From Gracilaria domingensis (lineage: Eukaryota; Rhodophyta; Florideophyceae; Gracilariales; Gracilariaceae): DNA of 64,000 bases. Below the pieces are notes generated by a model. That model worked only from the letters and a program-made list of their open reading frames with translations, did not search any database and was not told where the DNA came from. Made by a program: the position numbers and the translations under genes. Below, one piece after another: positions 27,093-64,000 of the stretch (position 1 is the stretch's first letter; each line of letters begins with the position of its first letter). The DNA lies in assembly GCA_022539475.1 (NCBI GenBank), contig VCMS01000086.1, positions 111,719-175,718 of the forward strand, in the 5' to 3' direction.

Positions 27093-27127
27093 TCACTACC
27101 CCCATTAAGGAGAGTCGTCCCGACTCG

Positions 27128-27639
27128 TCAGTAGTTGGGCGTATTATTCGGAATAGGATGATTTTGAAACAGTCCTGGAGGGTTAGGGAAGAGAACCATA
27201 TCTGAACGCGGTTCAAACGTTATAGAAAGATCAGTATTATCTCCAAATTCCTCGATGTGTAGAATAGCACTTTCAATTGTATTCAAGAATGTATCTCCGG
27301 GGTGCGGCGAGAGGTGACCAAACTGAGATACCAGGTAAGAGAATAGGAATAGATTGAACTCTTCATGAATATCTTCAAGTGTGCCATCTTCATAAGCTTT
27401 GAATAGCTTTCTTAGCATGATCGCATTCTCTGGGGTTAGAAATGGTCCTCGAACTTGCAGAAAGGCAAAGCAAATATGACATGAGGACATGCAAGACGAA
27501 ATCTCTCGAAAAGTTCATCGGTAATACCATCAAACCAGGTAAGCATCCTTCGTCTCCCAAGAACTATACGACTGTAGAACTGATTGGCGTTGTCGAGTTG
27601 CAGATTGTTCGCGATGTTCGGCTGTCCGTTGTTCGTCAT
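27128..27639 (-). pseudogene. Small ORF between pol and 3' LTR of element D
   Basis: About 165 codons in two frames joined by a one-base shift near 27440-27490. It starts MTNNGQPNIANN and contains RRMLTWFDGITDELFERF, then KLFKAYEDGTLEDI and a Pro/Asn-rich end. No signal peptide or membrane segment is visible, so it is not an obvious envelope gene although it occupies that position. Its sense matches pol and the function is unknown. Confidence 0.5.
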
Positions 27640-27674
27640 TGTTGGTGATGGGTGGTTACTGGGCCCGGTGATGT

Positions 27675-32145: not shown

Positions 32146-32295
32146 GGTATGAGGTGCGCGAACGGAGAACCTTTGAAATTGGCTGAAATCGGTGGGTTGC
32201 CAAAATAAATTGTCTAATTTTTCGAAAAGTGCAAATCAAGCCTTGCGCTGCCACTTTAAAAAATTGCAATTTGCAGGTTGCAGGCAAGCAGTGCC

Positions 32296-32368
32296 GCGCG
32301 CCTGGCCTAGTGGGTAGGCGGCGCTGGTGCAATTTCAGAGGTTCTAGGTTCGATTCCCTTCGCTGTAA
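32296..32368 (+). repeat. tRNA-derived SINE-like head inside element D leader
   Basis: A-box TGGCCTAGTGG (32303-32313) and B-box GGTTCGATTCC (32347-32357) lie 44 bases apart, the normal tRNA spacing. A perfect 4-bp D-stem (GCCT with AGGC) is kept. Acceptor, anticodon and T stems do not pair, so this is not a working tRNA; a SINE or tRNA pseudogene is likelier. It lies opposite to D, between the zinc-finger ORF and gag. Confidence 0.6.
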
Positions 32369-32594
32369 GTTGCAATTGCAGCCGGAGTGGTTCAATTAAG
32401 GTTTCTTCAGTTCAATTACAAAGCGTCAAGCGACTGGGAATATAGTAAGCCCTGTACGGCGACTTCTCCCTTGACAATGCTAAGTAATACGAACGTAGCG
32501 GAAACTGGAGCACAACCACAAACGGTAGTTTATAGGGTAGAACAACCGATTCTTGGAAACTTTTGTCAACAACACAAGGTGTTTAGGTTATAAT

Positions 32595-33248
32595 TTACTT
32601 GAAATAACGCTGTTGACGTCGGTTTTCCTTGTTGACAGCTGCTTGGTGCTTGCGTCCACCTCGGTGATCCTCGTAATGCTTCCAATTATTGAACGAGAGT
32701 ATACCACATTCGTAACAGCCCGGTGGGGAGCGCTTGTTCTGGAGCTTGTTGCGGTGTCGGCTACCAGACAAATGTTCGCGAAGTTGCACTCGGCTATTGA
32801 AACGGAGTTCACAGTCGTCACACCTGGGGGTCTTCAAGCGACGTCGAAGGTTACGTACACGCCGTCGCTTGATTCGATCGGTGTCCACGCGAAGGATATG
32901 GATATTAGCCGCGTCGTCTATGCGGAGCAGATGACGTGGAGTACCCTCGGTAGCCTCGGTAACCGATCGGTTCCTTGAAATCGGATTGCTGTCAACAGGA
33001 TCGGGTTGTTGACGAGCTGGTGACGACGGTGGTGACGGTGTGTATGAAGGTGGTGTACTCGGTTCCAAGGTGGACACGGCAGCGGAAACAGGGGTTTCGG
33101 TGGTGTTGACAGGGGGTGGCGGCGGTGGCGGCGATGACGGCGGTTCGGTGGATATTTCCGTGTTCGTATAGAACGACGGCGATGACGGCGGTACTTGGGA
33201 TCGGCGTATTAAGCTCACTGGAAACACCCAAATTGGGTCAGAAATCAA
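32595..33248 (-). CDS. Double C2H2 zinc-finger ORF upstream of gag in element D
   Basis: 217 codons. The N-terminal half is Pro/Ser/Thr-rich and disordered (a run of Pro at residues 40-46). Then comes a basic region, IKRRRVRNLRRR, and two C2H2 fingers: CDDC with HLSGSRH, and CYEC with HYEDHRGGRKH. It lies between the primer site and gag, in the same sense, and is intact. LTR retrotransposons normally start with gag, so an extra finger protein here is unusual. It may bind element RNA or DNA (inference). A decayed relative is at 480-775. The start is uncertain because no clear alternative Met is favoured. Confidence 0.75.
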   Translation of the reverse strand: MISDPIWVFPVSLIRRSQVPPSSPSFYTNTEISTEPPSSPPPPPPPVNTTETPVSAAVSTLEPSTPPSYTPSPPSSPARQQPDPVDSNPISRNRSVTEATEGTPRHLLRIDDAANIHILRVDTDRIKRRRVRNLRRRLKTPRCDDCELRFNSRVQLREHLSGSRHRNKLQNKRSPPGCYECGILSFNNWKHYEDHRGGRKHQAAVNKENRRQQRYFK

Positions 33249-33357
33249 CAGTCAGTAAAGAGCTGGACGTCTGTGGCTCGTCCAAACCTAGGGAATTTTG
33301 TATAGCAAGATCCACTAGGGCTGGATGGTCACTCAGTTTCAAATGAGCGCAATACTT

Positions 33358-33374
33358 ACTTGCGATGCTACCAA
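33358..33374 (-). promoter_or_regulatory. Primer binding site of element D
   Basis: TGGTAGCATCGCAAGTA, read on minus, lies at or one base after the 5' LTR end. Its complement would be a tRNA end with acceptor strand starting A-U, as in eukaryotic initiator Met tRNA; the tRNA identity is inferred. Confidence 0.65.
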
Positions 33375-33902
33375 TGATAGAACACTGGGTCTGAGGTTGA
33401 ACAATGGTTGAGAACGTGAACGATGGTGACTGTCGAGGAGAGTTCGGGCAGTCGACCACGGTTTATATGGAGAATCGGACCTTCGAAAATAAGGTCGCTA
33501 ACACAGCTTTCTAGAATATCCCTCAAACTAATGTGTCTATGAGTACTGGCCCTTGCGTCGGAATTAGTGTAGAAACTGTGCGTAGAAATCGACAGTGGAG
33601 TCTTCTAGAAAATTCTAGAAGTTCCTGCAACTTGTCCATTTGTAGAAGTTCAAGCAAGGCACCGAAACTATGAAGTCAGTCATGACGTCAACTGACGAGG
33701 CAGACATCACACGTGACATGTCTTGGTAACATTATGACAACTAATGTCAAACAAAGACTCTGAGGATCATTAGGGTATCAAATCGGATCGCTAGATCACG
33801 GGGAATTCAAAGAAAGCATCAAAACATTAAATGACTAACTAAAAGCATAGCAATATAACAAATTCAAATAAAAACATGACCAGAATTAACGAAATCTTAA
33901 CA
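33375..33902 (-). repeat. 5' LTR of element D
   Basis: 528 bp. In element sense it starts TGTTAAGATTTCG and ends TCTATCA. It is the partner of 26565-27092. Confidence 0.95.
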
Positions 33903-37020: not shown

Positions 37021-38160
37021 TTATTGCATTGCATATACGTCAAAGTCTGGCGCAAGGCAAGAGAAAAAATGATTTGCCTGTCCTCCTTTCTCGATACATA
37101 TCTTAAAGTTGAGGAGCAAACCAGACGCAATGTAGAGTAGCGCAATCGGATAACGTCGAACGCAGAGAAGACGTGAAAACCCATTTCTTACCCAGAGCTG
37201 CTTCAAATCGCGATAGTTCCACTCTACTGAGGTTCTCAGCCGATTCATGCACCAGTTAAAAGCTAGCTCATCAGCCGTGGCGAACAATCTTTCGAACACA
37301 GTCTGCATCCAAGGTCTCAAGCAGAACGCAGGATCTGCATACACGTAATACTGCAGCCCGTTATACAATAAACATGTTTCCAAACTTTGTTCCACCCCAC
37401 TTACTCGCAGCACCGTCAAATCATGATAGCGGCCTTCTTTGGGTCCAAACAAGTAAAATATTAGCCCATCTGGTGTAGATATTGTCAAGTACTTCAACAC
37501 ATGCTTACGAGTATGACCAGAGTAGCATGATTTCTGGTTGCTACTTTCTCCTCCTGGACGACACATTTCAATCTTCGTGCAATCCATAAATCCAACACAC
37601 CTAGTTAACGGTGCACCAACACCAGAAAGAGCCGAAGCGTACAGCTGTAGTCGCGTTTGCAGTAGAGATTGTTGCAAGTTTGTAATCAAATGTCCCTTTG
37701 CTTGCACAAACCTTCAATAGCCTCCCAAAAGATCTCGCTTATATGACTGCACCGCATACCAAACAACTCTTCAATATCGTACCATGTGCACGCAGATGCT
37801 AATCGTTTAAGTACAATGGCACATGCTGTTACTGCATCACATTTGTACCGATCTCTACTCGTGGTTTCCGTCCGTCAACGTAAACAACTTTGACACTCGT
37901 CCCACGTCTTGACGCCTGAAGCGAAAATAATGTAGACACTGTTCATCTGAAAGTAGGTTGAGATTGAAGGTGTGAGACGTGATGTACCCATAGCGGAGGC
38001 GCAAATTGTTTATGTCTTTTTGCGCCTGTTGCACACGAAACCACAAATATGGAATAATTGGGTCGTCTTCGTCTGCTTCTTGTAAGCCCGTAGCCAGGGC
38101 AGTGTGGCGATAGAGGGGACTACGAGCGGCTGAAATGGTATAGTGGCGTTGACGAACCAT
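37021..38160 (-). pseudogene. PIF/Harbinger-type transposase, decayed (H3)
   Basis: The N-terminal piece (38160-37855, DPIIPYLWFRVQQAQKD) runs through frameshifts near 37860 and 37690 into a core. The core has GFMDCTKIEMCRPGG (first Asp kept), GHTRKHVLKYLTI, LFGPKEGRYHDLTVLR (second Asp), YVYADPAFCLRPWMQ and SVEWNYRDLKQLW (Glu). All three catalytic acids are therefore visible, unlike H1 and H2. This belongs to the DDE_Tnp_4 group found in Harbinger/ISL2EU-like elements. It is convergent with the Myb-like gene. The frameshifts inactivate it. Confidence 0.8.
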
Positions 38161-41326: not shown

Positions 41327-42296
41327 TGTGAAGAGCAACACCCAAAAGGGGGATGATCCACAGGATGTCCGAGTCCTGCTCCCTGTAAGGGCAGACTCAG
41401 CAGAAGAGCCCTCTGTCCGCACTCAAGCCGAGTGGCTAACCGGGTGTAAGACCGGAGACGGTGCCTGGATATACCTACAGAGGTGAGAAACCAAGAAAGG
41501 ATGGTGATCAATACACAGTACGGAAACCCAGAGAAAGGGGGAAAGAAGGGGAAAGGAACCGTAAATACGGGGAATGCCTCAAAGGAAACCAACCCAGAAG
41601 CGGAGCCAAGGCCCGTGCCAACCGGGGGAAACAGGGCCAAGAGCAGAGCGACAACGGCGACCAATGCCGAAATAAACCCAATACAGGGGCGGAAATCAAA
41701 CCTAAACCAGGCGACTATGTCCAAAGCGACGCCACTCCAGGGCGAAGACGCTTGACACTAGCCGGAATCGGATCAACAACAAATGACCATTCAGTGGTGC
41801 GACAGAGCTTCCTAAGGGACCCTGAGGGGATAGTTGTACAAGAACCAAACGTGGTTACCTGCCTAAAAAGGGTTGTAAACCTACGAAGGAAGTACGAACT
41901 AGCACCAAGCCTTTGGTTAAGCGAGGCGACCTCAGTTGACTTTGCTTAGTGGCCGCGACCGGGAGGTCACGCTCACCTAAGTAGGTTCAACTAGACATTA
42001 AACTAACAACTATTAACTAATGTAGTGCACACCTCACGAGGTCCATACACGTGGCTAACCCACTGTCAGGGTGTCTAGAGAGGCAGTGCACTAGCTACAA
42101 ACTACACACTATCCACGTGTCCAATACCAGGCAATGGTTCTAAGACCGACTTCACCTGACAAGGTTCACCAGAAACATCCCCAACATTACCCAAGTAGTG
42201 GGGCCAGTCTCGACCAGAACAGCACCTCATCCCGGAGGGAGCGCACATCCTAAGCAAGCTCATCAGTACCCGTGAGGGGTGATTTTGCACTACACA
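41327..42296 (-). repeat. 3' LTR of element B
   Basis: 970 bp. In element sense it starts TGTGTAGTGC after a polypurine tract and ends GCTCTTCACA. Roughly 96% similar by eye to 59720-60687. It carries the CTCTGTAGGTATATCC block (41469-41484) and the hairpin GTGACC-TCCC-GGTCGC (near 41957-41972). Confidence 0.9.
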
Positions 42297-45953: not shown

Positions 45954-47480
45954 TCAACCCTTATGGGTGTCCAAAGAAATCGTGTCCTTCCAGGAATCAA
46001 ATGAAGCAGAACCCTGCGCAGGGTGACAATCCTCATTAACGCCGGAAACTGAATTGAGCGTAACGCTTTCCCCTCCCATGCGGGCTTCACTACTCACCTC
46101 GGCTGGCAAGCGTTTAAACTTGACCATCCCTGGTGGCGCATCTCTTCCTGCATTAGGCTCCACAGTAGTGGCAGCCACATTTCCATTGGATGCAACCGCT
46201 TCTACCGTACCATCACATCCTTCTGGATTACAAACCAAATCAATCGGGTTCAAATACGATAGGACCGAAAATGTCTCCCGAGTCTCCGGTACCAAAAAAT
46301 CTTCCACCAAAACCTGGTTATCAACGACAACATCAACGAACCCAGCTTCAGGGTACACGCCGTTTTTCACCGGCTTCATGCCATAGATTCCCACGGCATT
46401 CAGACCAACATGGCGGTAGTCCAGACAGAACTGGAGAGACCTATCCTTCCTAGGAACCACCAAAACTGGTGCCAGCGAACGTCCGGTACGAGTCGAATCA
46501 AAAAGAGACCGTACGAACGGGACAAAAGAGAAGCGCTTCCTTCCATTCAGGGCATCAACCACAGTAGACCACGGAGTGGTGAGCACCTCAAGTAGGGAAC
46601 CAGATTTCACAACATCAGATCTTTCAAACCCACGGCGGGTATTCAACTGCAAATCCTGTTTAGGGACCGACTTCTCCATACGTGGAACAACCGAGTCATG
46701 CCGCGACGGTTTCAAATCCCAAAGGGCGTTCAACTTCTCAGCTTCGAGCTTATCAGACAAGCCGACAACATCGGAAACATCCAGACCAGTAGCAAACATA
46801 CCCGAAGGGTGCGCAGTAGTTTGACTAACCACTTGCTGGTGCTGTAGCGTCTGCGTGGAACGCGAGAAGTTAGCAACAAGAACCTGAAAAGGTTTCCTAC
46901 CTTCACAAAGGGTAATGCCTCGAGCAACAGCGAGACCATACTTCTCCAAAAGAGACGGTAAGTGGTGCACAATAGCAAGTCCATTTCTCTCAGTTGAGAC
47001 AGTAACCCAAGCTTGGGACATCGGAGGAATCCGGACAAACTCGGAAACGCGTACCTTCGAAGACTCAACACCTTGAGATTCATACTGCTGAGCTGGTCGC
47101 AGCGGAGCCGCGTTACGTGCGGAGCGCTTCTTTGCCCGTTCCCACGGTTTTCCAGCAAATGGAACAGACGAGCCATCTACCAGCTCCACCCTCGAAAGTC
47201 TGGGTTTGATTGACTCCACATGGAGGTGGCAAAAATCACAACCGAGCACAATCGGGGCTGCAAGCGTCTTGCACACAACAAAGTTAACCGATACAGCGGT
47301 CAGTCCTAAACGAACCATAATTGGTATCATACCCATCGTAACAATTGGGCGATCATTCGCATCAGCGATTTCCTTCAGGGGACCGTAACGGATAAATTTA
47401 TGACACTCCTGCGGAAGGAACGATTCCAGCATACAATTGGGGCCGGCTCCGGTATCCAATAGAGCGACATGATGAACCAT
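45954..47480 (-). CDS. Element B truncated pol: protease without RT core
   Basis: A 508-codon open frame. It starts with a retropepsin-like protease, ALLDTGAGPNCM and VLGCDFCHLHVESI, closely parallel to element A (LDTGAAPNLI, VILGCDFCDRFVEAI). A shared linker follows, then only the first RT motifs: LAPVLVVPRKDRS and FCLDYRHVGLN. After MKPV the palm, RNase H and integrase are gone, and a non-homologous tail continues to the stop. The frame is uninterrupted, so the shortened product might still be made, but it cannot copy or integrate the element. B would need enzymes from a relative such as A. Confidence 0.8.
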   Translation of the reverse strand: MVHHVALLDTGAGPNCMLESFLPQECHKFIRYGPLKEIADANDRPIVTMGMIPIMVRLGLTAVSVNFVVCKTLAAPIVLGCDFCHLHVESIKPRLSRVELVDGSSVPFAGKPWERAKKRSARNAAPLRPAQQYESQGVESSKVRVSEFVRIPPMSQAWVTVSTERNGLAIVHHLPSLLEKYGLAVARGITLCEGRKPFQVLVANFSRSTQTLQHQQVVSQTTAHPSGMFATGLDVSDVVGLSDKLEAEKLNALWDLKPSRHDSVVPRMEKSVPKQDLQLNTRRGFERSDVVKSGSLLEVLTTPWSTVVDALNGRKRFSFVPFVRSLFDSTRTGRSLAPVLVVPRKDRSLQFCLDYRHVGLNAVGIYGMKPVKNGVYPEAGFVDVVVDNQVLVEDFLVPETRETFSVLSYLNPIDLVCNPEGCDGTVEAVASNGNVAATTVEPNAGRDAPPGMVKFKRLPAEVSSEARMGGESVTLNSVSGVNEDCHPAQGSASFDSWKDTISLDTHKG

Positions 47481-47753
47481 GAGATGGTCAGAGAAGCCGA
47501 AGTCGGCGTGAACGTTGTAACTTCTCTACGGGAGCATCATCACACGTTCCAGACGCTTCGGATTGACCTTTCGCTTCCACAGCCGAACGAATTGACCCAT
47601 CTCAGGGTGCGAATCCGCAAAGAATAAAGATATCTTCCTCGAGAGGATCTTCATCGGGGGGCGAGGCTGTGAAGCCTCAGGTGGCGATGACCCCTGTTCA
47701 CAGGTCACCTCTCCCAAATGGGAGGGTTCCGAAATCAGTTTTTCGGAACTGTC
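47481..47753 (-). other. Element B gag-pol junction, cut by element A
   Basis: On minus it begins at the duplication GACAG and reads into a GAAAAACTGATTTCGG segment, as at the gag stop of element A (51029-51046 there has GAAAAACTGACTTCGG). A 5-bp hairpin, CTCCC-ATTT-GGGAG, follows (47711-47724). The matching upstream part of gag is at 62209-62290. Confidence 0.8.
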
Positions 47754-48727
47754 TGTAGAGCAACGCATTTCGCGTGGTTATCAGGATGATGCGCCTCATA
47801 TACTCAGGGGAGTGATACGAGGATGCACTCGAAGAGTTATGAGTTGGACCCAATTTTGGCGGTTACTTTTGGAATGGCTTTCCCACAGTTACCTGTAATC
47901 AGGGTTGCCATTGCTGGCCAATATCGCTAGGTGGACGCGTGTACTACACCACCGTGTGTGTGCATATTACGGGACAATAGGTAGTGCACCTGAGGTGCCT
48001 GACACTGGGCTAGCCACGTGTACGGACCCCTGCGGGTGTGCACCACGTGTACATAGTTAGTTTAGACCTACTTAGGTGAGCTCGACCTCGTCGTCGCGAG
48101 CACCTTTGTAAAGTCAACCCGAGCAATTCTAAGTGAACTCTTTGTCGAGTAGCGCTCTCTTGAGTGGACTCTACACGAGTGAGGCTCTGGCGCCAACCGC
48201 CTACGTGGGTTATCACTCTCGCGAGTATAGCCACGTCTGGTTACGGTGGTCCTACCCTCTCGGTACCTTTGAGGAACATCTGTCGTTGATGTCGGGACCT
48301 GAGGGTCGTACCGAGGAGGTATAGGACTAGATTACGAAGTGATCCGACTCTGTATAGAGTTTTGCCGTGTTTACGGAAACCCGTGCATTACCGTTGGAGG
48401 ATCTCGCCCCGCTCCGGGCACAGTGCCGAGGAGGCCCTACCCGTCGCGTGTGGGTGTTGTTTGGTTGTTGTTTTCTGTTGCTTTCCCTCTCGGGACTACA
48501 CCTGTCGTTGGTCGTGTTTCATCGTTGCCGATACCACCCCATCTCTGGAGTTTCTCATCGTTTCCTCACCACGTGGCCTAGCACCTCTGTAGGTATAGCC
48601 AGTTGCCACTTCGGTCTTACAACCGAGTTACGGTGGTACAGAGGGCTCTGTCACTGGTCTGCCATCTCTCACGAGAGCGGACCTTCGGACAGTCTGGTGG
48701 GTTTCACTCTTCCGAGTTTGCCTTACA
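47754..48727 (+). repeat. 5' LTR of element A
   Basis: Starts TGTAGAGCAACG, ends TTGCCTTACA. The CTGTC duplication precedes it (47749-47753). It contains CTGTATAGAG (near 48349) and CACCTCTGTAGGTATAG (48582-48598). A stem with GGTG-CTCG pairing to CGAGCACC lies at 48075-48104. Confidence 0.95.
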
Positions 48728-48971: not shown

Positions 48972-51041
48972 ATGCCGCAACCGCCTCGAGGTTCTCGAGC
49001 TGGTTCAGCGCGGTCGTCAGCTGCGGTTCCACCCGTTGCACCGACGTCCCGGTCTATCCCAGATGAGGCGCAACCTCTTGAGGTCGTACCCCGCCCCCGG
49101 AGAACGCGTTCAGTTACGGAAGCACCTAAGGAAAATGTGGGTTCTGCTCAACCCGTCGTTGAGACACCATCCATGGTTAACCCTAACGCTGCTACCGTAG
49201 CCGAGTTGGCTAGGTAGGAATCCCGCTTGGATATTAATCACGCTGCTCACGTGGAACTCCTACAGGATGTTACCTCGTTGAGGACGCAGGTTGATAATGC
49301 CCAGGTGAGGGATGTCTCAGGAGACTTACGTCTTCTGAGAAGGGACGTGAATTCCATTATGGAAAATCTGGGTACCCCAGACTTCTTCGTCACGGAGTAC
49401 CGGGCATTTGTCGAGGAAATGCGCACCGATATCGGTCGAATTCGTTCGCGCTTGGAAACGCTGGAGGATACAATCCGCATGGATGAAGCTGTGGACGCAC
49501 AGGTTCCTCAAGGAAATCCATCTGCGGATGAAGACCATCGTTCGGTGAAGCAGAAACGTCGACACCCAAAACGAGTTCACTACGATTCGGATTCATCGCG
49601 CTCTGACTCGAGCGGCATGACTGAAGACAGTTCGTCAGATTCATCTGATAGTGATGACAACCGTCATAGGTCACGTTCGACACGGTCGAAAGCGACGCAG
49701 TCTACTCAGGCAGTGATGAAATCACGCGTGAAAGGACGGCGCCACTTGGGACTCAAAGAGTTAAAGCCGACGGACCCGCTCTACACAAAGCTGTTGTCGT
49801 ACCGCTATTATCGGTTGGAGGATGTTACTTCGAATCGCTCTTCGCGAGGAACCGGTAAGGTGAAGGACTACATTCGAAGGTTGAATGTTACCCTTGAAAC
49901 AAGGAAGTTCTCGGGGACAGATCCTATCCTTATCTTGGATTTCCTTGCCAGGTTCGTCCAGGAGGCCGATATACTCGGTATGAGTGAAGCACAGGCATAT
50001 GTGGCACTGCCGTACTTCCTAACAGGGACTGTGGAAGATCAGTACAACTCAGTTCGAGGAACGTCGAGAGCCTCGGAAGGAGGAGTCACGTGTTGGCCGG
50101 AAGCCGTGAACTACCTTCTCAGGTCGTACGCGACTTCCAACGCGATTTACAGCGCTACTCTTGCTGTTCGCGACACTAGACAGAAGAGTGGAGAATCTGA
50201 AACGGTTTATTCAACGCGGTTGAACAAAGCGTTTCACCGATGTGGTAATGTGTATTCCGCACAGGAGCGGTGTACCATGTTTGTTGATGGTTTGGACCCC
50301 ACCATTCGGTCGTTGGTCGCTCGCCGACGCGAGGAAAAACGCCGAATGACGTACCTAGAGTTGGTTAATTACGCCCAGGCGGAAGGAGAGACGTATCGAG
50401 CCCGCAACCCGGGGCAGCGCCGCTCGAAAGCGCTACTCGCGGAGAGTTCGTCACCATCGATGTCGGTTTTGCGACGTGAAACCGCTGTCGGTGATGCTGA
50501 TAACGTCCACTTCATCGGAAGTAACCCCGATTCTTACGGATCTACGGACCTGCCGTCAACCTCGATTCCGAGCACGGAAGAAGACCCCGCATTGTATGCC
50601 CAAAGTGTCCGGGTGCCTGCAGCCCCGCTGCCTTACGCTAACAATTCGTCGCGCCTGAACCGTCCAGGGTGGAAGGACACAGCACCACAACGTCGAGTGG
50701 ACAATCGCCCTCGCGACAAACCGGCCTCGGTCATATGTTACCAGTGCTACCTTCCAGGTCACGTATCGACGCAGTGCGTATTTCCGCCGTCGCACCGGCC
50801 GAAAATTATTGCGTATTACGACGCCCTCACGCCCGAGGAAAAGGAATCTGTTCCACGAAAGGAATATGATAAGGCCAGAGTTGAACTGGGATTACCGGTT
50901 CCGGTCTATGCTCAGCCCTCCGTTCCGGCACAGGCACCTTCGAACCAGGTTCAAGGCGAAGTACCCACGCATGGGGTTCAGTTAGGCCCCCCGAACGGAG
51001 TTCAGGCACCGAATTCGGTGAGCCCCGTTCAGAAAAACTGA
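48972..51041 (+). pseudogene. Element A gag
   Basis: About 690 codons from the ATG at 48972, with one in-frame TAG at 49215-49217; the frame after it is intact. The N-terminal part is Pro/Arg-rich. A coiled segment then includes RTDIGRIRSRLETLED, an acidic Ser/Asp tract, and a capsid domain from RKFSGTDPILILDFLARF through the helix YLLRSYATSNAIYSATLAV to MFVDGLDPTIRSLV. The CCHC knuckle CYQCYLPGHVSTQC lies near 50735-50776. Gag builds the particle and binds RNA. The TAG could be a simple mutation; no second full copy in the window tests readthrough. Pol follows in another frame after a 40-base spacer rich in short inverted repeats. Confidence 0.9.
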
Positions 51042-52013
51042 CTTCGGGAGTTTCCCCTACGGGAGGGGCGCCTTCCGAGCCGAAGTTGAAGGCGCCCGAG
51101 GCGTCACAGCTTCGCTCCCCAGCTGTTAGAATCCTTTCAAGGATAGCGGCTACAACTGACGTGAGCTCAGAACACCTTTCGGTTCTACGTCGTCCGTGGA
51201 TACGGTCCCGTAATCTCCGTATTCCGGAAAGAGTTCTTGTGATGGCCAAGAGAAACTACAAAGTTTATGCCGATCTTGGCTTGTCTAACCAGTTCATGGT
51301 TCGACAGTTGTCTGTGTTGGATACAGGAGCTGCACCGAACCTGATTCACCTTGAGTTGGTGCCACCCGCGCTACGGGATGAAATTCGTCATGGTCCAGGT
51401 TTGGACATCGCGGATGCCAACAATAACCCGTTGCGTACTCTTGGGTACATACCTCTCATGGTACGATTAGGAACCTGTATGGTTAAAGTGGATTTCATGG
51501 TTTGCAAAAGCATTGCCGCACCGGTGATACTCGGTTGTGACTTTTGTGATCGTTTTGTTGAAGCGATTCGACCTCGAGCTCGAGTTGTTACCATGGATGA
51601 TGGTTCCGAAATACCGATTGTAAGGAAACCGCTAAAGAGAGCTACACGCAAGCGCGTCCCGCTCCCTGCTGCACAGGAAGTTCCAACCGTCGACCCGGTA
51701 TCATCTAAGCTCCATGTGGCTCATGCCATCGCAATCCCTGCGCAATCCCAAGTTTGGGTCACCATAACTACTAAGCAGTCTGGTCTACGTGTGGTACAAC
51801 CATTGCCATCATTGTATGATCAGAAGCAACTCGCTTTGGCGAACGGAGTAATCTCGGTGGAACCCGACAAACCATTCAGAGTTTCGGTCGCCAACTTTGG
51901 CACAACCCGACAGTGGTTAGCTAAAAACCAAATCCTTGGTACCACTCTCCCACACCCTGCTGCTATCGTACCGACGAAGATACCCGTTGCGGATGTTCTC
52001 GGTATAACCGATG

Positions 52014-52027
52014 CTAAGGAGGGGGAG
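52014..52027 (+). promoter_or_regulatory. Internal polypurine-tract copy 1 (element A)
   Basis: CTAAGGAGGGGGAG in the protease-RT linker, one base different from the 3' tract at 58717-58730. It also encodes Lys-Glu-Gly-Glu, so protein constraint is an alternative. Confidence 0.45.
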
Positions 52028-55000
52028 GGATCAGCGGAAACCGCTTTTACCGCATCGGTTACCCCGGCGAGCGAAGTTACCGAATCGCTGGCACCCACCG
52101 AGGGTAAAGCGTTGCCACCAGGAACGGAAGATACAGACCCTGTCAAGGAACTGGAACAGTTGAATTTTAATCATGTACCTGAATCTCATAGAGGTAAGCT
52201 AAGAGAAATGTTGAGGGAGTTCACACCCATGTGGGATGGATCCCTCGGGACAATTGGAATCACGGAACACCGTATTGACCTACTTCCAGGTACTAGCCCC
52301 ATTTCCCAACACCCATACTGGGCTGGTCCCAAAGCTAGGGAAGAAGAGCAATCTCAGGTTGAGAAGATGTTACGCGCTGGCGTCATAGAGGCGGCTCAAT
52401 CCGCTTGGGCCTCACCCGTGGTGCTAGTTCCAAAAGCGGACGGATCGTGGCGATTCTGTATTGATTACCGTCGTCTAAATTCGGTCACCGTCAAAGACGT
52501 TTATCCCATACCCAGGATGGACGAATACATTGACTCGCTTGGGAGTGCTACAGTGTTCACCGCCTTGGATGCCAATTGGGGATACTGGCAAGTTCCGATC
52601 CGTGAAAAGGATAAGGACAAAACTGCTTTTGTGTGCCACCAAGGTTTGTACCGGTTTAAGCGAATGCCGTTCGGATTAACCAACGCACCGGCTACGTTTC
52701 AACGTGCTATCGATATCCTCTTGGCTCGATTCAAGTGGAAGACCTGCTTGGTGTATCTTGACGATATCATCGTGTTCTCCGATAACCTTGATGACCACTT
52801 AACACACGTCCGGGACGTCATGAGAGTCCTCAGGGACGCGGGCATTACGCTGAAACTCAAGAAGTGCGAGTTCTTCACAGATTCTGTCAAATACCTAGGG
52901 CATATCATTCGACCTGGACAGCTCTCAGTTGACGCAGTTCGCGTGAAGTCGCTGAAGGAAGCGAAACACCCTACGACACAAACGGAACTCCGCCGTTTTC
53001 TGGGTCTTTGTAATGTATATCGGCGTTTTGTCCCGAACTTCGCAGATATTGCGACCCCTTAACCACCTTTTGAGAAAAGGTCAACCAGTTCAACTGGAAC
53101 CCCTAGGCGACGCGGAAGCGTCTGCCTTTTCGGCATTAATTGACGCAGTAACGTCACCGCCAATCTTGGCTTTGCCTAAGCTAGGACTTCCATTCGAAGT
53201 AGACACTGACGCCAGTGCACACCAGGTTGGTTGCGCCCTGTTTCAGGTCACGGAAGACGGCGTGAGACATCCAATTGGATACTGGTCGCGATCCTTGAAC
53301 GTACACGAACGTAACTACTCAGTTTCGGAGAAAGAGTGCTTAGCCGTTGTATGGGCTCTAACTACACTGAGGCCATATCTTATGGGCAACCATTTTACGG
53401 TACATACGGACCACTCATCTCTCCGATGGCTCATGGAAATCTCGGAACCATCAGGACGCTTGATGCGTTGGCGCTTGAGGTTATCGGAGTTCGATTTCAC
53501 AGTTACGTACAAAAAAGGAACGTTGAATCTGCAGGCAGATGCACTCTCCCGCTTGGGAACAGATGCAGAAGCATCACCAGTTGACGATCTGGACATACCA
53601 TGCTTTATGGTGGAAGAACAAGCAGGTTGGGTCGAATCCTTGTCGGATGACATCTGTGACGACATCCTGCTCACTTCTGAGAAGTTGGATCCCTTGACTG
53701 GATCTTTTGTACCCATCACTCCCGAGGAGATGATCCGAGAACAGCAAACGGATGAGTTTTGTACCCGAATTCGCGCTCGTCTCAATGGAGGAGATCGTAT
53801 ACCTTTTCAGGTTAACGATCAGGGGTACCTGGTTAGGTTGGTCGAAGCGTATACCCAAATTGTGGTCCCATACTCGCTGCAAAACCGTGTGTTGGTCATG
53901 ACACACTATGTGAAGGTAGGAGCCCACCCAGGAGGTCGAAAACTATACTTGACCCTGCGTAGGGATTTTTACTGGCCGTCAATGGCATTGGACTGCTACG
54001 CAGTACGACGCTCTTGCACCGAGTGCGCTAAGAATAACGTGAAACTTCGTAAGTACTCGAAGAAGTTAACGCTGTTCCCAGCACGGTCTTCTTTGGAGTT
54101 TATCGCTATCGATATCTTAGGTGAATTGATCAGGACCGCAAGAGGTAATCGATACCTTCTGGTTATCACCGATCGGTTCTCTAAGTTGGTACGGACAGTC
54201 CCGCTGAAACGGATTACGGCCACCGTGGTTGCACAAGCTTTTGTCACCCACTGGGTCTTTGTGTACGGTCCACCGGTTCATCTATTATCAGATAACGGTT
54301 CACAGTTCACGTCGAAGTTTTTCCAGGACGTCTGTCGGATCTTGAGTGTCAAGAATTTATTTACGACCACCTACCACCCCCAAACAAATGGTCAGGTAGA
54401 ACGATTTAACCGTACCATGCTGAATGCATTAAGATCTTATGTGGCAGATCATCCTAAGGATTGGGATTTGTATACGGACGCTATTACGTATGCGTACAAC
54501 ACCCAAGTCCACCGGGTAACGAAGCTAGCACCTTTTGAGTTGGTATTGTCAAGAGTACCGCCACCGGTTGCAATCGAGGCTCAAGAAACGCTTTCTACGT
54601 ACCCGTCTGTTGGGTTATACAGGAACGCTTGGAAGGATTGGTTAACAAAAATGGTACCGGTCGCTCGCACAGCGATGGATAAGGCGCAGGCCGCTTATAA
54701 GCGCAACTTCGATGCGAAGGTTAAGACCCCACTACCAAAGGTCAAACCAGACGATATGGTATTTCTCCGCAAAGAATACTATAATCCGGAGAAGGAACGC
54801 CGCCACAAGCTCTCGCCTATCTCGGAAGGACCCTACAAGGTCATTTCCGTCACGGACGATACCGTAGTATTGGATATCAATAATCTCCACGAACGGATAT
54901 CGTTAGACCGTGTCGCGCTGGCCCCACCACCCTACGTTCACGTTAACACCCAACTGGGTGAAGCTACAGGGGACGAACAGGTCGTATCTTCGCGCCCTGC

Positions 55001-55143
55001 GACTCTCCGCCCTGATCGCGGCTTATCGGATCTACCGAAGTCAAAATCACCCACGCGGGTAGCACAACCCGTTGCGGGAGACGAAGAGGAAAACTCAACT
55101 AGAGTTGACCCCCCAACGGACGTCGTGGCTCCCGTGCCACCGC

Positions 55144-55157
55144 CTAAGGAGGGGGAG
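55144..55157 (+). promoter_or_regulatory. Internal polypurine-tract copy 2 (element A)
   Basis: Identical CTAAGGAGGGGGAG in the pol tail, at a place where C (12033-12046) and B (45304-45317, minus) have the same tract. Confidence 0.45.
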
Positions 55158-55493
55158 GAAAGTACGGAACCCGTTACACCGGCGTCGCACGGTCACACTG
55201 TGTCGCAAGGTACCGCCACCAATCTCGCGGTCTCTACCGATAGCGTTGTGGTGCGCCGAGGCGCTGTACCTCGTGGTGATACTCCGTCGAGTTCGTTGAG
55301 CAATGCGCTGGAAACGAGACGACCCACCCAGGGGGTACACACCGCTGTGGATAACGTAACCCCGTCGGGAACACCACAACTGAGTGAGGTCACCACCCGC
55401 AGAGCGGAGAAGACAGTATCTGTAGACCCGGGCTTCCCGGAGAACGCAGAGCCGCAAGCGGTAGATCAGCTCAATGTTACCGACCGGTGTTAA

Positions 55494-56186
55494 CCACGCC
55501 GTGGTATGAGGAAACGAGAAGTCGTATTTACCCGCGTATTATTTGGGAAAACAACCTTGGAAAGGTGAAGTACGAAGTACGAGTTTGGAAACCGTCGATG
55601 GTGCACCCACGCCGCGTGGCAGAGGACTCATGACACACCCAAGTGGAGAGTAACACGTTGTGTGACGTGGTGACGTACGGAAAGCACCGCCGACGCGGGG
55701 AACTGCTGACAGTAAGTCGCGTGCGCGAGTACCACACGTGCAGGGTGCACGATGTACGGTCGCCAACCGTAGGCGAATGGACACCTGTTAGGGTAACTTG
55801 TGGCTCACACGTGCCACCGCCTGGCCAACCAGAAGGCCGCGATATGCACCGTGATTGGTCAATCCACCTCCATGGCGCACGAGCGAGACCCTGCCCGTTC
55901 TCCGTCGCACGGACGATCCTTCTGGATAGCAAGAGGGAGCTCAGAATTCCGAAGCTACCGTTGGACGGTTGGAAGCTCAACCAAGACGAGCCGAAGCTCG
56001 TCAGACTCAAGAAGGAGAGTACTTCAAGAAGAACCTTTCAGGTTGAAGATTGGACGCTCCTGGCGTAAGTTGTAGTTGTCGCGCAGCGAGGAACTCCTAG
56101 TGAGTCGTGACTGGTTAAGTCCAAGAGGAACCCCTCTAGAGGTTAGCCGGCCACCACCTCGCCACCCTCGAAGGTACGAAACCACA
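55494..56186 (+). other. Element A spacer between pol and chromodomain
   Basis: A plus-strand frame at 55643-56068 is open, but its composition is not convincing. Short inverted repeats (ACCAC-GCC-GTGGT at 55493-55505, CCACG-CCG-CGTGG at 55607-55619) are present. If the chromodomain is joined to pol by splicing, the intron lies here. Confidence 0.45.
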
Positions 56187-56429
56187 ATGGGTGAAGGAGA
56201 GCAGTCAAACACCGAGGTGTACCCGCAGGAATACGTGATCGAACGTATCGTACGTCATGTTGTAGACCCCGACGGGACGGTACTGTACCAAGTGCGATGG
56301 TATGGCTACTCCGCCGAGGAGGACACCATGGAGCCGGTCGAGCACCTACCTAGGTCGAAGATCGTTTCATACCACCGTCGCACTCGGTCAGCCTTGCCGT
56401 CCAACCTGGACCAAGCCCAGGTGGGATAA
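56187..56429 (+). CDS. Chromodomain ORF of element A
   Basis: 80 codons from the ATG at 56187; the frame is open upstream to 56076 without an ATG. Chromodomain: YVIERIVRHV, then YQVRWYGYS, EDTMEPVEHL and SYHRR. The usual TWEP motif is TMEP here, while element C keeps Trp. In this domain class, aromatic residues bind methylated histone tails and guide integration; whether Met at this position matters is unknown. Location and order are the same as in element C. Confidence 0.82.
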   Translation: MGEGEQSNTEVYPQEYVIERIVRHVVDPDGTVLYQVRWYGYSAEEDTMEPVEHLPRSKIVSYHRRTRSALPSNLDQAQVG

Positions 56430-56798
56430 GAACCGTCTCCGGTGAGGAGCTTTCAACTATACCGCGATGCGGAAGACTCAGAATGGAGAGTTGACCCCTC
56501 CTGTGTGGGGATGAATGAAGGAAGAAGACCAATGAAGCGGTGAAGACTGAACTAGAGGAAGTGAGAAGAAAGAAAGAAGAGCATACCGAAATGCCGGTTG
56601 TACCGATTTAAAACGGTTAGAGTAGAAGAAGCACCAAAGAAGTGAAGTACACTTGAACACAGTGTGAGGGAAGAAGTAATCGAAGATCGATCAAGTTCGT
56701 GGAGAACAGGCAAAAGGGTGAAGGGAAAGTTACCACTAGATGGTTTTACTGTTTCTATCCTATACTAAGGACCAAGTCCTCCAGCCCTGCTGGTCATC

Positions 56799-58652
56799 TT
56801 ACACCCCCGATGAGGGACCGGCACCGCCGCTACCGGAGGGACCCTGCGAAGGGTGCGGAACGGCGTAAGCCAGTATCCCTGCCATAGTGGTGAGATGATC
56901 GGGCACGATAATTCCAGCGTTCTGGAGACTGGCGCGCAACATCGCGATGTTCGCCGGAGAATCTCCCGGAGCGACCGGAGCTGTCGGGGCCGGCAGGACC
57001 GAAGGAACGGTAGCCGCTACAGGGGCCGGACCCACCACCGGAACACTCGCTTGAGTCGGAACATTCCAACCCACAGGAGCCTGGGGTACCCCGCCGCTGG
57101 CGTGCAACACCTGATTCGCCGCCGGTAGGTCGTTCACCAACTCTTGGTCCATCTCGACGAGTGCTCCCGCCGCCTCTCCACCGGTATCCATGTTCGGATC
57201 ATCCAGATCTACTGGGGCGACCCAGTTGTCACTGAACATGAACCCAACGGGGTGACTGTCTGGAATCGACCGTGGCTGGTTCGCTGCCCACTCGGCATAT
57301 GCGCTAGTCGTCATCGTACCCTCCCATGGGTCGTAATACACGAAATCTCCTGCGGTGGGATGTCTCCTACCGGGTGAGCGGTCGTAGTGACGACGAGGAC
57401 CTTTCCCACGCTGCGAACGGGGCACCGTTTCCCAATCGACTCCATCGATAACATCCAAGATGTAATGGATCTCATCCACGTTCTCTTCGGACCCCAAGGG
57501 AGTGTGCAAATCCAGCGAGCGGATAATGCTGCGAAGCATCGGCGGAATATACCAAACACGGTAGTTGTCGTAAGCCTCCCAGAGGAGAAACGCTGCTACG
57601 CGTGCCGCCCACTCGCCGGCTACCAGACCCCACCATCCTGAACGCGGATCGTTGATCAATCGGGAGCCGATGTAACTCAAGCACGGAGGCAGTTCTGCAA
57701 AACACCCTTTGGGTACCTCCACATCACGCCACCAATCTGGTAGAGGGGGGAACCGTCCAACAAAGGCCTGCGGTCTGTACCTCTCGGTCTCGATATTCGG
57801 GTACGGAATCAGATACCCATGACGGGAACGAGCTTTCCGCTCAAACCGAATGCGGTTGACGAACCCACCCTGGGAAGCGTTCTTGCGAAGATAACGGAAC
57901 TCCGCTCAGAGTATGGGCCGATTCCAGCACAACATCAACCTCGATGTGGTCGGGCCATCGCCAGCGTACCGCGCATGGTCGAACGTCGCCAAGTTGTCTC
58001 CATATCGGACTTCACCGAAAGTACGGTAGAACGGAGTATCGAACCCATATGACGGTGGAACCAGGTGCTCGAGGTGCACTCGACTGAGTCTCTTGTACGC
58101 CAACTTCGCGTGTTCCGCGCGCGCGGTGTTCAGGTTCTCACCCTCGCGGGTATCGTACCGGAGGAGCATCGGGTCGATCGCTATACGAACTTTCCATTCT
58201 GGGGATTGCACTACCGCTAACGGCAGACCGCCCGGTAGGAAGCCGTTTTCGGCATACGACTCCAGGAGAGTGTCATCGTTAACAGCTACCGGATGAAACC
58301 ACGGTGCACGGCTGAACACAAACCCATCACGGAGTGGATCGCGTACGGCGAGAGATTCCTTCGATATCCAACCAGCTTGGTTCGCCATCAGCGGCATCGC
58401 TTGCGCTGAATTCCATAACGGAACGTTCACCGGGACCATCGGTTGAGACTGAGGCAGTGGAGCCGTCGCCTAACCCGGCTGAGGGTAGTTCGACGCGCTC
58501 GCCTGACCCGTCGGGTGATGAGGAAACTGATTCGGGTTCATCGGAATGACAGATGATGTACTGTGATCGAGTTCGGATACTTGAATACTCTGTTCGCTTG
58601 AGTGTGTATCGCGCTTGCGAGGTATAGAAACCGAGGAGTTGGTACCGCTCAT
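56799..58652 (-). pseudogene. Antisense ORF of element A (conserved, unknown)
   Basis: A single frame of about 618 codons, opposite to pol, starting at MSGTNSSV (58652) about 80 bp inside the 3' LTR boundary and ending at 56799. It contains two stops: TAG at 58470-58472, absent from element C, and TGA at 57906-57908, present at the same codon in C. Conserved blocks shared with C lie on both sides of the TGA: SRAPWFHP, ENGFLPGG, PSYGFD and TFGEVRYGDNLA before it; RSRHGYLIP, GRFPPLP, CFAELPPC, EWAARVAAF, LWEAYD, YDRSPGRRHP, FVYYDPWEG and GFMFSD after it. A low-complexity Pro/Ala/Gly tail follows. No known domain was recognised; no signal peptide or membrane helix is obvious. Expression would need an antisense promoter at the 3' LTR. 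Confidence 0.8.
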
Positions 58653-58716
58653 GACTGTGACGTACTTACGTACATGCGTTTCGCACAAAACTTCAGCCTC
58701 GAAGTCGTTCTCGGCT

Positions 58717-58731
58717 CTAAGAAGGGGGAGA
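58717..58731 (+). promoter_or_regulatory. Polypurine tract of element A
   Basis: CTAAGAAGGGGGAGA immediately before the 3' LTR. Confidence 0.85.
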
Positions 58732-59705
58732 TGTAGAGCAACGCATTTCGCGTGGTTATCAGGATGATGCGCCTCATATACTCAGGGGAGTGATACGAGG
58801 ATGCACTCGAAGAGTTATGAGTTGGACCCAATTTTGGCGGTTACTTTTGGAATGGCTTTCCCACAGTTACCTGTAATCAGGGTTGCCATTGCTGGCCAAT
58901 ACCGCTAGGTGGACGCGTGTACTACACCACCGTGTGTGTGCATATTACGGGACAATAGGTAGTGCACCTGAGGTGCCTGACACTGGGCTAGCCACGTGTA
59001 CGGACCCCTGCGGGTGTGCACCACGTGTACATAGTTAGTTTAGACCTACTTAGGTGAGCTCGACCTCGTCGTCGCGAGCACCTTTGTAAAGTCAACCCGA
59101 GCACTTCTAAGTGAACTCTTTGTCGAGTAGCGCTCTCCTGAGTGGACTCTACACGAGTGAGGCTCTGGCGCCAACCGCCTACGTGGGTTATCACTCTCGC
59201 GAGTATAGCCACGTCTGGTTACGGTGGTCCTACCCTCTCGGTACCTTTGAGGAACATCTGTCGTTGATGTCGGGACCTGAGGGTCGTACCGAGGAGGTAT
59301 AGGACTAGATTACGAAGTGATCCGACTCTGTATAGAGTTTTGCCGTGTTTACGGAAACCCGTGCATTACCGTTGGAGGATCTCGCCCCGCTCCGGGCACA
59401 GTGCCGAGGAGGCCCTACCCGTCGCGTGTGGGTGTTGTTTGGTTGTTGTTTCCTGTTGCTTTCCCTCTCGGGACTACACCTGTCGTTGGTCGTGTTTCAT
59501 CGTTGCCGATACCACCCCATCTCTGGAGTTTCTCATCGTTTCCTCACTACGTGGCCTAGCACCTCTGTAGGTATAGCCAGTTGCCACTTCGGTCTTACAA
59601 CCGAGTTACGGTGGTACAGAGGGCTCTGTCACTGGTCTGCCATCTCTCACGAGAGCGGACCTTCGGACAGTCTGGTGGGTTTCACTCTTCCGAGTTTGCC
59701 CCACA
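58732..59705 (+). repeat. 3' LTR of element A
   Basis: 974 bp, TGTAGAGC to CCCCACA. The right flank is GTAAC, not the CTGTC of the left LTR. Only 14 bp separate it from the 5' LTR of element B. Confidence 0.95.
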
Positions 59706-59719
59706 GTAACACGTTGCAT

Positions 59720-60687
59720 TGTGTAGTGGAAAACCACCACTCACGGGTACTGATGAGCCCGCTTAGGATGTGCGCTCCCTCCGGGATGAGGTGCTGTTAT
59801 CGTCGAGACTGGCCCCACTACTTGGGTAATGTTGGGGATGTTTCTGGTGAACCTTGTCAGGTGAAGTCGGTCTTGGAACCATTGCATGGTCATGGACACG
59901 TGGATAGTGTGTAGATTTTAGCTAGTGCACCACCTCTCTAGACACCCTGACAGTGGGTTAGCCACGTGTATGGACCTCGTAAGGTGTGCACTACATTAGT
60001 TAATATTGTTAGTTTAATGTCTAGTTGAATCTACTTAGGTGAGCGTGACCTCCCGGTCGCGGGCACTAAGTAAAGTCAACTGAGGTCGCCTCGCTTAACC
60101 AAAGGCTTGGTGCTAGTTTGTACTTCCTTCGTAGGTTTACAACCCCTTTTTAGGCAGGTAACCACGTTTGGTTCCTGTACAACTATCCCCTCAGGGTCTC
60201 TTAGGAAGCTCTGTCTCACTACTGAATGGTCATTTGTTGTTGATCCGATTCCGGCTAGTGTCAAGCGTCTTGGCCCTGGAGTTGCGTCGCTTTGGACATA
60301 GTCACCTGGTTTAGGTTTGGTTTCCGCCCCTGTATTGGGTTTACTTCGGCATTGGTCGCCGTTGTCGCTCCGCTCTTGGCCCTGTTTCCGCCGGTTGGCA
60401 CGGGCCTTGGCTCCGCTTCTGGGTTGGTTTCCTTTGAGGCATTCCCCGTATTTACGGTTCCTTTCCCCTTCTTTCCCCCTTTCTCTGGGTTTCCGTACTG
60501 TGTATTGATCACCATCCTTTCTTGGTTTCTCACCTCTGTAGGTATATCCAGGTACCCTCTCCGGTCTTACAGCCGGCTAGCCCCTCGGCTTGAGTGCGGA
60601 CAGAGGGCTCTTCTGCTGAGTCTGCCCTTACAGGGAGCAGGACTCGGACATCCTGTGGATCATCACCCTTTTGGGTGTTGCTCTACA
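59720..60687 (+). repeat. 5' LTR of element B (inverted half)
   Basis: 968 bp, TGTGTAGTGG to GCTCTACA, oriented opposite to the other B LTR at 41327-42296. It carries CACCTCTGTAGGTATATCC (60531-60549) and the GTGACC-TCCC-GGTCGC hairpin (near 60045-60060). The primer site follows at 60690-60707 (TGGTCTCCCGACTTAGAA). Confidence 0.92.
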
Positions 60688-60885
60688 TCTGGTCTCCCGA
60701 CTTAGAAGGGATTGTGATCAATTTGTACTCTTACGAGTGTGGAATTTGTGAGATTGGGTTCCTTTTTTGGGAGATTGGTTTCGATTGATACCGTGTTTCG
60801 GTTCGGTTGAATCATTCTCTCGTTGTTCTCCGCTTTTCGGAAGTTGTGGTGAGCGTTTTCGTTCGCACCGAATTTTCGGTTCATC

Positions 60886-62290
60886 ATGATGATGTTCATG
60901 TTGTCATCAGACAAAACCGATGACGGTTCGACCCATTCGGGAGATGCTGACGATTCTCCACGTTTGGATTTGCACACTGTTCCCCAAGGGATGGGTGTTG
61001 GCGAAGGTTCATCCGACCCTCCGACAGTATTGTCTGTTTTGTCAGTTTCCGAAGCTGGGTGGTCTGTTGATCCCACACCTGTGGTTCATGGATTATCTGA
61101 CTGCCGGAATACGGACGCTCTTTTGTTCTCCAGGATGGAGTCTGCTACCAAAGATTTGGTCCTTGGTCAGCAAGTCCAGTTGGAAATGCTGTCGAATCCC
61201 AGACGAGATATTTCTGATATCAAACTCCGAGACGTGTCGGCAGATAATCGCGAGTTGCGACTCGACGTTTCCTCGATTATCGAGATGATTGGTTTTTCTG
61301 AAGCCTCACATGAGGAGTTTACTGTTAAGTTGAACCAAATTGGTGAACGTATGGATGTATTGGAGAAGCCTTTGAATGCCAAGAAGGATCTCCCCGATGC
61401 TACGGTTGTTGATGGTTTCCGTTCTCGGAAAGGAAGCCGTAAGTCCGGTTCACGCCATTCCTCTCGAAAGAGATTGTCCTCTTCAGAGAGTTCATCAACT
61501 GACACTGACTCATCCACATCGTATTCGAGTTCATTTTCCGACTCATCGGATACTGAACTTCCTCCTCGGAAGAGTTGCAAGCGTTCCCGTTCACACGGTA
61601 GGAGTTCTCGAAAGAGATTGAAAGGAAAACGCACCAAGTCATCTGGTTTTCGTTCTGGACACCGCAAGACGGTTCACTCTCATATGAGCACGTCTGAAAC
61701 TGAGACGTCTATATCAGATATGTCGTCATCCTCTTTGGATTTGAATTGGTTTGAAAACTCGCAGCGCGAGATAGAAGAGTTGTATTCTCACCAAGATTCT
61801 GGGGTTTCTCCGAAGCCGGAACTTCCGCAGAGGTCAGCGATGACGATGCAGAATGATCTCGCTTTGTACGGTGAAGGTACCCATGCTGGGTTTCGACAGG
61901 TTGCTCCTGGAACGAACACAGTTGAGTACAGAAAACCTGAGGTCAGGTACTCGTCGCCGCAACTTGCTTTGCACGTTCGTCATGTGGGCCAACCGGCCAC
62001 GGTGCTTTGTTATCGATATTACCAGTTTGGCCATCCAGCACCGCAGTGCACGTTCCCACTTCGGGAATGGTCGACCATTATTGGGAATTATGAATCGCTC
62101 CCACCTGAGGGCATTGCTCGTGTGTCGAGAGCATCCTATGAGGTCGCGGTGATGAACCGAAACGATTTTGAAAATAGTTGAAACACCGTTACGGTTCAGA
62201 ACCAAGACATGGTGGAGGAGTTCACTCCCAAGACCGGAGATTTTTCAGTTCCCCAGGACGGGTCCAAACCGAGTCATTCGGTGACGACAG
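60886..62290 (+). pseudogene. Element B gag, 5' part up to the insertion site
   Basis: ATG at 60886, with an in-frame TGA at 62179-62181; the frame continues to 62290, where an A LTR cuts it. It has a coiled segment (LRLDVSSIIEMIG, FTVKLNQIGERMDVLEK) and a long Ser/Asp/Arg tract like that of A. The capsid domain present in A is missing. The knuckle reads CYRYYQFGHPAPQC, so the second zinc-binding Cys is Tyr. The last codons (HSVTT) continue, after the GACAG duplication, into the segment at 47748 on minus, matching the end of A gag. It is a shortened Gag that probably cannot assemble by itself. Confidence 0.82.
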
Positions 62291-63265: not shown

Positions 63266-64000
63266 TCTCCCCCTTCTTAGAGCCGAGAACGACTTCGAGG
63301 CTGAAGTTTTGTGCGAAACGCATGTACGTAAGTACGTCACAGTCATGAGCGGTACCAACTCCTCGGTTTCTATACCTCGCAAGCGCGATACACACTCAAG
63401 CGAACAGAGTATTCAAGTATCCGACTCGATCACAGTACATCATCTGTCATTCCGATGAACCCGAATCATTTTCCTCATCACCCGACGGGTCAGGCGCACC
63501 CTGTGAGCGCGTCGAACTACCCTCAGCCGGTAGCGACGGCTCACTGCCTAACAGTCTCAACCGATGGGTCCCGCGTGAACGCTTCCGTTATGTAATTCAG
63601 CTCAAGCGATGCCGCTGATGCGGCGAACCAAGCTGGTTGGGATATCGGAAGGAATCTCTCGCCCGTACCGCCGATCCACTTCCGTGAATGGATTTGTGTT
63701 CAGCCGCTGCCACCGTGGTTTCACCGGTAAGCTGTTAACGATTGACCTCTCCTGGGAGTCGTATGCCCGAAAAACGGCTTCCTACCGGGCGCCGTCTGCC
63801 GTTAGCGGGTTAGTTGCAATCCCCAGAATGGAAATTCGCATAGCGATCGACCCGATGCTCCTCCGGTACGATACCCGCGAGGGTGAAACGACTGGAACAC
63901 CGCGCGCCGCGAACACGCGAAGTTGGCGCCTAACAAGAGAACTCAGTCGACGTGCACCTCGAGCCACCTGGTCCACCGTCATCATGGTTCGATACTCCGT
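63266..64000 (+). pseudogene. Second antisense ORF copy (family A), cut by the window
   Basis: The start MSGTNSSVSIPRKRD (near 63346) is readable on plus and matches the antisense frame at 58652 with small indels (for example near 63425 and 63510-63550). The rest continues past the window edge. It is expected to be part of an A copy of about 12 kb. Confidence 0.75.

Follow-up and report, generated by a model that had tools for sequence, protein, structure and literature searches.

In two Ty3/gypsy-type families of the red alga Gracilaria domingensis, does the DNA that lies opposite pol, from the chromodomain ORF to the 3' LTR, encode a protein and, if so, how might that protein be produced from a frame that the same stop codon interrupts in both families? 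The window, meaning here the whole 64,000-nucleotide stretch that was analysed, is eukaryotic in its content and dense in transposable elements. The first of the two, family A, is bounded by LTRs and contains gag-like and chromodomain ORFs, the latter free-standing, together with one frame for protease-RT and another for RNase H-integrase. Its 5' LTR (47754–48722, plus strand; edges uncertain by some bases) and 3' LTR (58732–59700, plus strand; preceded by a polypurine tract), both delimited by BLAST alignment, differ at 5 of 969 positions (99.5% identity), and A looks like a young element by LTR divergence. By eye, no obvious target-site duplication is seen in the flanks (47734–47753 against 59701–59720), so that the LTR pair may not record the age of a single insertion. 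The gag-like ORF (49227–51041, plus strand) was recognized by its position and, by eye, by a CCHC-like motif near its end, with no significant Pfam gag match. The protease-RT frame (50885–53062, plus strand) matches Pfam RVT_1 (6.8e-39), the protease being assigned by eye from a DTGA motif; the RNase H-integrase frame (53013–55493, plus strand) matches Pfam RT_RNaseH, rve and Integrase_H2C2, and the chromodomain ORF (56076–56429, plus strand; Pfam Chromo 3.3e-10) stands apart from the integrase ORF. Between RT and RNase H the frame of A shifts beside a TAA (53040–53062), through either damage or recoding. At the gag/protease junction, the motif GAAAAACTGA is found at 51032–51041 of A and at the matching place of another element, family D (47744–47735), with the protease in the -1 frame, and constitutes a candidate -1 frameshift site. 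A further match to this 10-base gag/pro motif, at 38875 on the minus strand, was judged to be due to chance.

The second element, family C, spans about 9.5–16.6 kb and is a more damaged relative of A, with 76% protein identity in the integrase (353 aa) and 58% in the chromodomain (84 aa). Its chromodomain ORF (13042–13356, plus strand) is homologous to that of A and, according to frames worked out from coordinates, the chromodomain ORF shares in both elements the frame of the last integrase-side ORF, from which it is separated by stops and a spacer of 0.6–1.1 kb; the two may be joined by splicing. A Ty3/gypsy pol accompanied by a chromodomain is also seen in chromoviruses, the oomycete Chronos elements and brown-algal chromodomain Gypsy elements (PMC5348765, PMC12477816). 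In A and C, however, a stop precedes the chromodomain, which forms an ORF of its own and is not fused to the integrase as in chromoviruses, whereas A differs from Chronos in matching only RT_RNaseH models at a Pfam E-value of at most 1, with no second plant-type RNase H (PMC5348765). Judging by this domain layout, A and C are neither typical chromoviruses nor Chronos.

Other elements populate the window. Family B (26565–33900, minus strand) is a Ty3/gypsy element with its chromodomain fused to the integrase and 526-bp direct repeats (26565–27090 and 33375–33900, 99.4% identical) that are perhaps LTRs; its pol, from 30419 to 27678, contains a single interruption, a TGA (29658–29660) at a strongly conserved site. 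Family D presents LTR-like repeats (41329–42296, minus strand, and 59720–60687, plus strand; 95.9% identical), a gag-like ORF (60853–62178) and a protease-RT remnant (45957–47525, minus strand). A transposon-dense region holds a tyrosine-recombinase ORF (20578–21843; Pfam Phage_integrase 3.2e-07), which we take to be possibly a Crypton-type element, and two ORFs match the DDE_Tnp_4 transposase, one at 37024–37713 (minus strand; E 3e-17) and one at 3811–4386 (plus strand), the latter with an E of 2e-05 that falls slightly short of the Pfam cut-off.

In both A and C, a coding region runs opposite to pol and convergent with the chromodomain ORF, in the interval from that ORF to the polypurine tract and 3' LTR, just where the initial annotation had located an antisense gene (domains assigned by Pfam for A, by homology for C, and by eye). 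The antisense ATG of A (58652) lies about 80 bp internal to the 3' LTR. An in-frame TGA divides the region into an upstream ORF1 and a downstream ORF2, the latter occupying 56799–57905 of A (minus strand; 368 aa after the shared TGA at 56802–57905, ending in a TAA at 56799–56801) and 13784–14803 of C (minus strand; 339 aa at 13787–14803). The two ORF2 products are homologous (blastp E 6e-98, 51.6% identity over 283 aa), and the blocks CFAELPPC, LWEAYD, SPGRRHP, YYDPWEG and GFMFSD are, as had been noticed, identical in both, while blastn yields no DNA match between A and C in the antisense region at an E-value of at most 1e-5. Across the best-aligned part, 332 codons long, amino acid identity is 52%, differences fall on codon positions 1, 2 and 3 at 42, 29 and 65%, synonymous sites are saturated (pS 0.76) and dN is 0.475. 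Read in any of the remaining five frames, two antisense and three sense, the same alignment carries 5–16 stops per copy. Since dS is saturated, a true dN/dS is not obtainable for most stretches and pN/pS is given instead. Its values are 0.46 in ORF2 and 0.48–0.54 in ORF1 stretches, compared with 0.34 for the chromodomain ORF and 0.21–0.27 for three stretches of pol; the underlying codon alignments were built on protein alignments of just two copies, of which one is partly decayed. The antisense gene evolves faster than pol, yet is clearly constrained.

Conservation at the protein level under saturated silent sites, in a frame that is open on the antisense strand only, argues that A and C almost certainly carry a real antisense protein gene under selection, and the earlier suggestion that the conserved blocks reflect selection on the protein is upheld by the blastp match, the codon-position pattern and the saturation of synonymous sites. 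Non-coding antisense transcripts do occur in other retroelements, according to a review (PMC7264820), but a reading in which the conservation serves an antisense RNA or the sense strand, and not a protein, would have to accommodate that same codon-position pattern and protein match together with the stops in five other frames, and is extremely improbable. Selection on the other strand as the cause of the conserved blocks is not supported, given the stops in the three sense frames, and RNA structure finds no backing in six single-strand folds computed at the shared stop, which sample little of the gene and show no unusual stability.

The same region had been described as an open frame for a protein of about 600 residues, but neither copy is open. 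In A, the interval 56799–58652 equals 618 codons, in which a TAG (58470–58472, minus strand) and the TGA (57906–57908) precede the final TAA. ORF1 of A (57909–58652, minus strand) extends from the ATG at 58652 to the TGA and is similar to 15594–14807 of C, where a sense codon occupies the place aligned with the TAG, which is thus found in A only. The interval first delimited in C (13784–15483) measures 1700 bp, a length not divisible by 3, and coding similarity begins further 5', at about 15594. The ORF1 region of C (14807–15609, minus strand, from an ATG at 15609) is decayed, with a TAG at 15496–15498, just upstream of that interval, a frame change near 15165 and a second TAG at 15056–15058; the frame ahead of the change ends in a TAG at 15163–15165. 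A candidate 60-nt intron of the form GTAAGT...TTAG, identified by eye (15496–15555, minus strand), would remove the TAG at 15496–15498.

One interruption is common to both copies. The in-frame TGA of A (57906–57908, minus strand) and that of C (14804–14806, minus strand) occupy the same aligned codon, in the contexts RPIL*AEFRYLR and RPII*AEFHHLR, respectively. Upstream of it, 14 of 30 and 9 of 25 aligned codons are identical in two blocks, and identity over the first 60 codons downstream is 9, 13 and 13 in successive groups of 20. The 60 residues after the TGA agree in register at 35 positions, compared with at most 7 at the 12 other offsets tried, and the first in-frame ATG past the stop is met only at residue 123 in A and residue 61 in C. 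Conservation beginning right after the TGA, together with so distant an ATG, indicates that ORF2 is not simply an independent gene started by its own ATG, and the alignment implies that the stretch just after the stop is translated now, or has been for most of the history of the two families. A stop common to diverged relatives, with coding conservation on both sides, is the pattern by which readthrough is recognized, here in two sequences.

The sharing of this codon could nonetheless be the product of ordinary decay, in which a frame once open over about 600 codons in both families would have been broken by independent nonsense mutations or base-call errors that, by coincidence or at a mutational hot spot, struck the same codon. 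Damage is plentiful: C is broken elsewhere in both pol and the antisense gene, the pol of A changes frame and its antisense gene holds a TAG absent from C, and part of the window resembles uncorrected long reads. When stops were placed at random over the 574 aligned codons, weighted by mutability, the chance of coincidence was 2.5–5% for one TGA per copy and 6–10% for any of two stops in A and three in C, figures that vary with the stop type and the CpG factor; a value within this 2.5–10% span leaves decay some room, even as it requires coincidence at one codon of 574. Furthermore, the 5 differences in 969 positions between the LTRs of A leave little time for a private stop to arise at the TGA codon, or for two stops to accumulate, unless the parent copy was already damaged. 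Decay is a rather unlikely account of the shared stop. Against an ancestral TGA stands the fact that only two copies cover the site, both of them otherwise damaged. Considering the low chance of coincidence and the small LTR divergence of A, tempered by possible damage in the parent and by the missing target-site duplication, the TGA is probably ancestral and bypassed.

Profile and tblastn searches for further antisense copies in the window returned, above chance, only A, C and a cut-off second copy of A. The latter lies on the minus strand, and its partial antisense ORF1 (63266–64000, plus strand) adjoins its 3' LTR (63265–62297), which differs from the 3' LTR of A at 4 of 969 positions. Over the whole 735 bp there are only 8 mismatches to A, and the 577 bp from 63424 to 64000 contain 40 indels relative to A, 30 of them of a single base, a pattern that looks like that of uncorrected long reads and by which frames near the window end are not to be trusted. 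In A coordinates, the window ends about 125 bp short of the TGA site, and this copy, ending there and carrying 40 indels, hence cannot decide on the TGA.

Taken as a whole, the best explanation, at close to an even chance, would be a selected antisense gene whose ancestral TGA is bypassed, most likely by readthrough. An antisense transcript would begin in or near the 3' LTR; termination at the TGA would yield a short ORF1 protein of about 200–250 residues, and bypass of the TGA, most simply by ribosomal readthrough, would yield an ORF1-ORF2 protein of roughly 580–620 residues at a lower level. A precedent among retroelements is Tca2 of Candida albicans, in which an in-frame UGA likewise separates two coding parts and must be bypassed; its UGA lies, unlike that of A and C, on the sense strand at the gag/pol junction, and its flanking sequence alone gave no readthrough in Saccharomyces cerevisiae (PMC2194720). 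No favorable readthrough context was found at the shared TGA, which is followed by a G (TGA then GCGGAG), and no stimulatory RNA structure emerged from six folds spanning or lying 3' of it, which were not clearly more stable than their shuffles (z -0.19 to 1.22). Readthrough as the route of bypass is accordingly put forward with some reserve, as slightly short of even. More tentative still is the possibility that the UGA, ancestral and retained through divergence to saturation, controls the proportion of short to extended antisense protein, in the manner of gag/gag-pol recoding on the sense strand.

Splicing could also carry translation past the stop, if an antisense exon further upstream were joined to an acceptor close to the TGA or at it; ORF1 and ORF2 would then come from alternatively spliced RNAs, in the manner of retroviral env. 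Each leader does contain a GTAAGT donor, at 58669 in A and 15555 in C. The exon preceding this donor, counted from an ATG, closes in phase 0 in each copy (it is ATG TAC in A and, in C, the 54 nt that begin with the ATG at 15609), and the second AG after the TGA (GCGGAG) would open an exon 9 bases past the T of that codon, again in phase 0 for ORF2 in A and C alike. A plausible small intron lies nearby in C. The leader donors, however, are not homologous, that of A lying upstream of the shared ATG AGC start and that of C downstream of it, and in neither copy is the first AG after the TGA, the one that would ordinarily be encountered before the others, in phase. The GT dinucleotides up to 60 nt before the TGA lack a donor consensus (GTTGAT, GTTGTG and GTGCTG in A, GTTTCA in C), whereas the nearest donor-like sites (58141 in A, 14982 in C) are more than 170 nt upstream, do not align, and would delete conserved codons if used. 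These features make splicing an unlikely route past the stop.

The third way past the TGA would be to decode it as an amino acid, either as selenocysteine or through a genome-wide sense reading of UGA. The pol of family B, an otherwise open frame of 914 codons, is broken by an in-frame TGA, and the pol of C is also interrupted by one, but nine coding stretches (4,921 codons) contain 73 TGG against 3 TGA codons, a TGA count that is lowered by construction in that most of these stretches were chosen as frames between stops; the three are the shared site in A, the shared site in C and the lone TGA of family B pol. If UGA ordinarily stood for tryptophan, long frames with many TGG but no TGA codons would seldom be seen, so that this reading is unlikely, and no SECIS element appears among the Rfam matches up to an E-value of 5 in 55494–58760 and 11926–15720. 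Decoding of the TGA as an amino acid is overall very unlikely, and readthrough continues to be the preferred route.

What the antisense protein does can be approached through its relatives and its composition. Pfam returned nothing better than E 0.11 for the antisense pieces of A and C (best E 0.27 for ORF2 of A), and PHROGs gave no match for three proteins. Three sequence matches in the PDB, with E-values of 1 to 1.7, were taken as chance. Scans of viral and genome contigs for relatives through the A and C protein alignment, the A and C integrase alignment and ORF2 of A left none confirmed by tblastn, in searches that start from a few short peptide patterns and that distant relatives can escape; tblastn of ORF2 of A found none in plasmids. 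To judge from these searches, the antisense protein looks like a new protein family. An AlphaFold prediction from a three-row alignment of A and C, with the TGA read as W, gave no usable model (mean pLDDT 33.1). Averaged over 19 residues, hydropathy peaks at 1.43 in ORF2 and at 0.99 in four ORF1 pieces, with no clear transmembrane segment in any of them, which makes an envelope role unlikely. Our best guess, drawn solely from the analogy with known antisense ORFs such as gene23 of Grande, is that the product would be an accessory regulator of the element, and not an enzyme or an envelope protein. In C, TATAAATA begins 19 nt before the ATG and hints at a putative internal antisense promoter; the scan used on C detected no element of the TATAAATA type in A.

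An antisense ORF in the interval from pol to the 3' LTR is known from Grande, RIRE2, Retand, PvRetro13 and Boty, and a review describes gene23 of Grande as being transcribed from its own promoter and encoding a nuclear protein, and suggests a regulatory role for such ORFs while treating their action as an open question (PMC7264820). The comparison with Grande drawn in the initial annotation is apt, but the novelty is less than claimed there, since Boty of Botrytis, outside plants, also has such a gene (PMC7264820). The genes of Grande (gene23), RIRE2 and Retand, termed aORF-3R, resemble that of A and C in being antisense, in lying between pol and the 3' LTR and in being kept across families (PMC7264820). 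A and C share with them the location, the orientation opposite to gag-pol and, in two families only, the conservation of the protein; they differ in the chromodomain ORF upstream and in the stop shared within the gene. Most Retand elements encode a Transposase 28 domain (PMC11963269), and no Pfam match to it (TRP28, PF04195) was obtained at an E-value of at most 1 in ORF2 of A, ORF2 of C or the ORF1 pieces. The brtn gene of Boty in Botrytis cinerea is likewise an extra antisense gene in a fungal Ty3/gypsy element (PMC7264820, PMC8365987); the available passages mention no internal stop in it, and it is set beside A and C by description, not by sequence. Among the matches listed, a scope mostly outside subscription journals, no antisense gene has been described in a chromodomain element of the A and C type.

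That a seemingly new family of antisense genes lies beside a free-standing chromodomain ORF, and has been preserved by selection between two elements so strongly diverged, argues for the importance of such genes to the element. If the shared UGA is a recoding site, it would be, to our knowledge, the first in an antisense retrotransposon gene; none is named among the matches listed.
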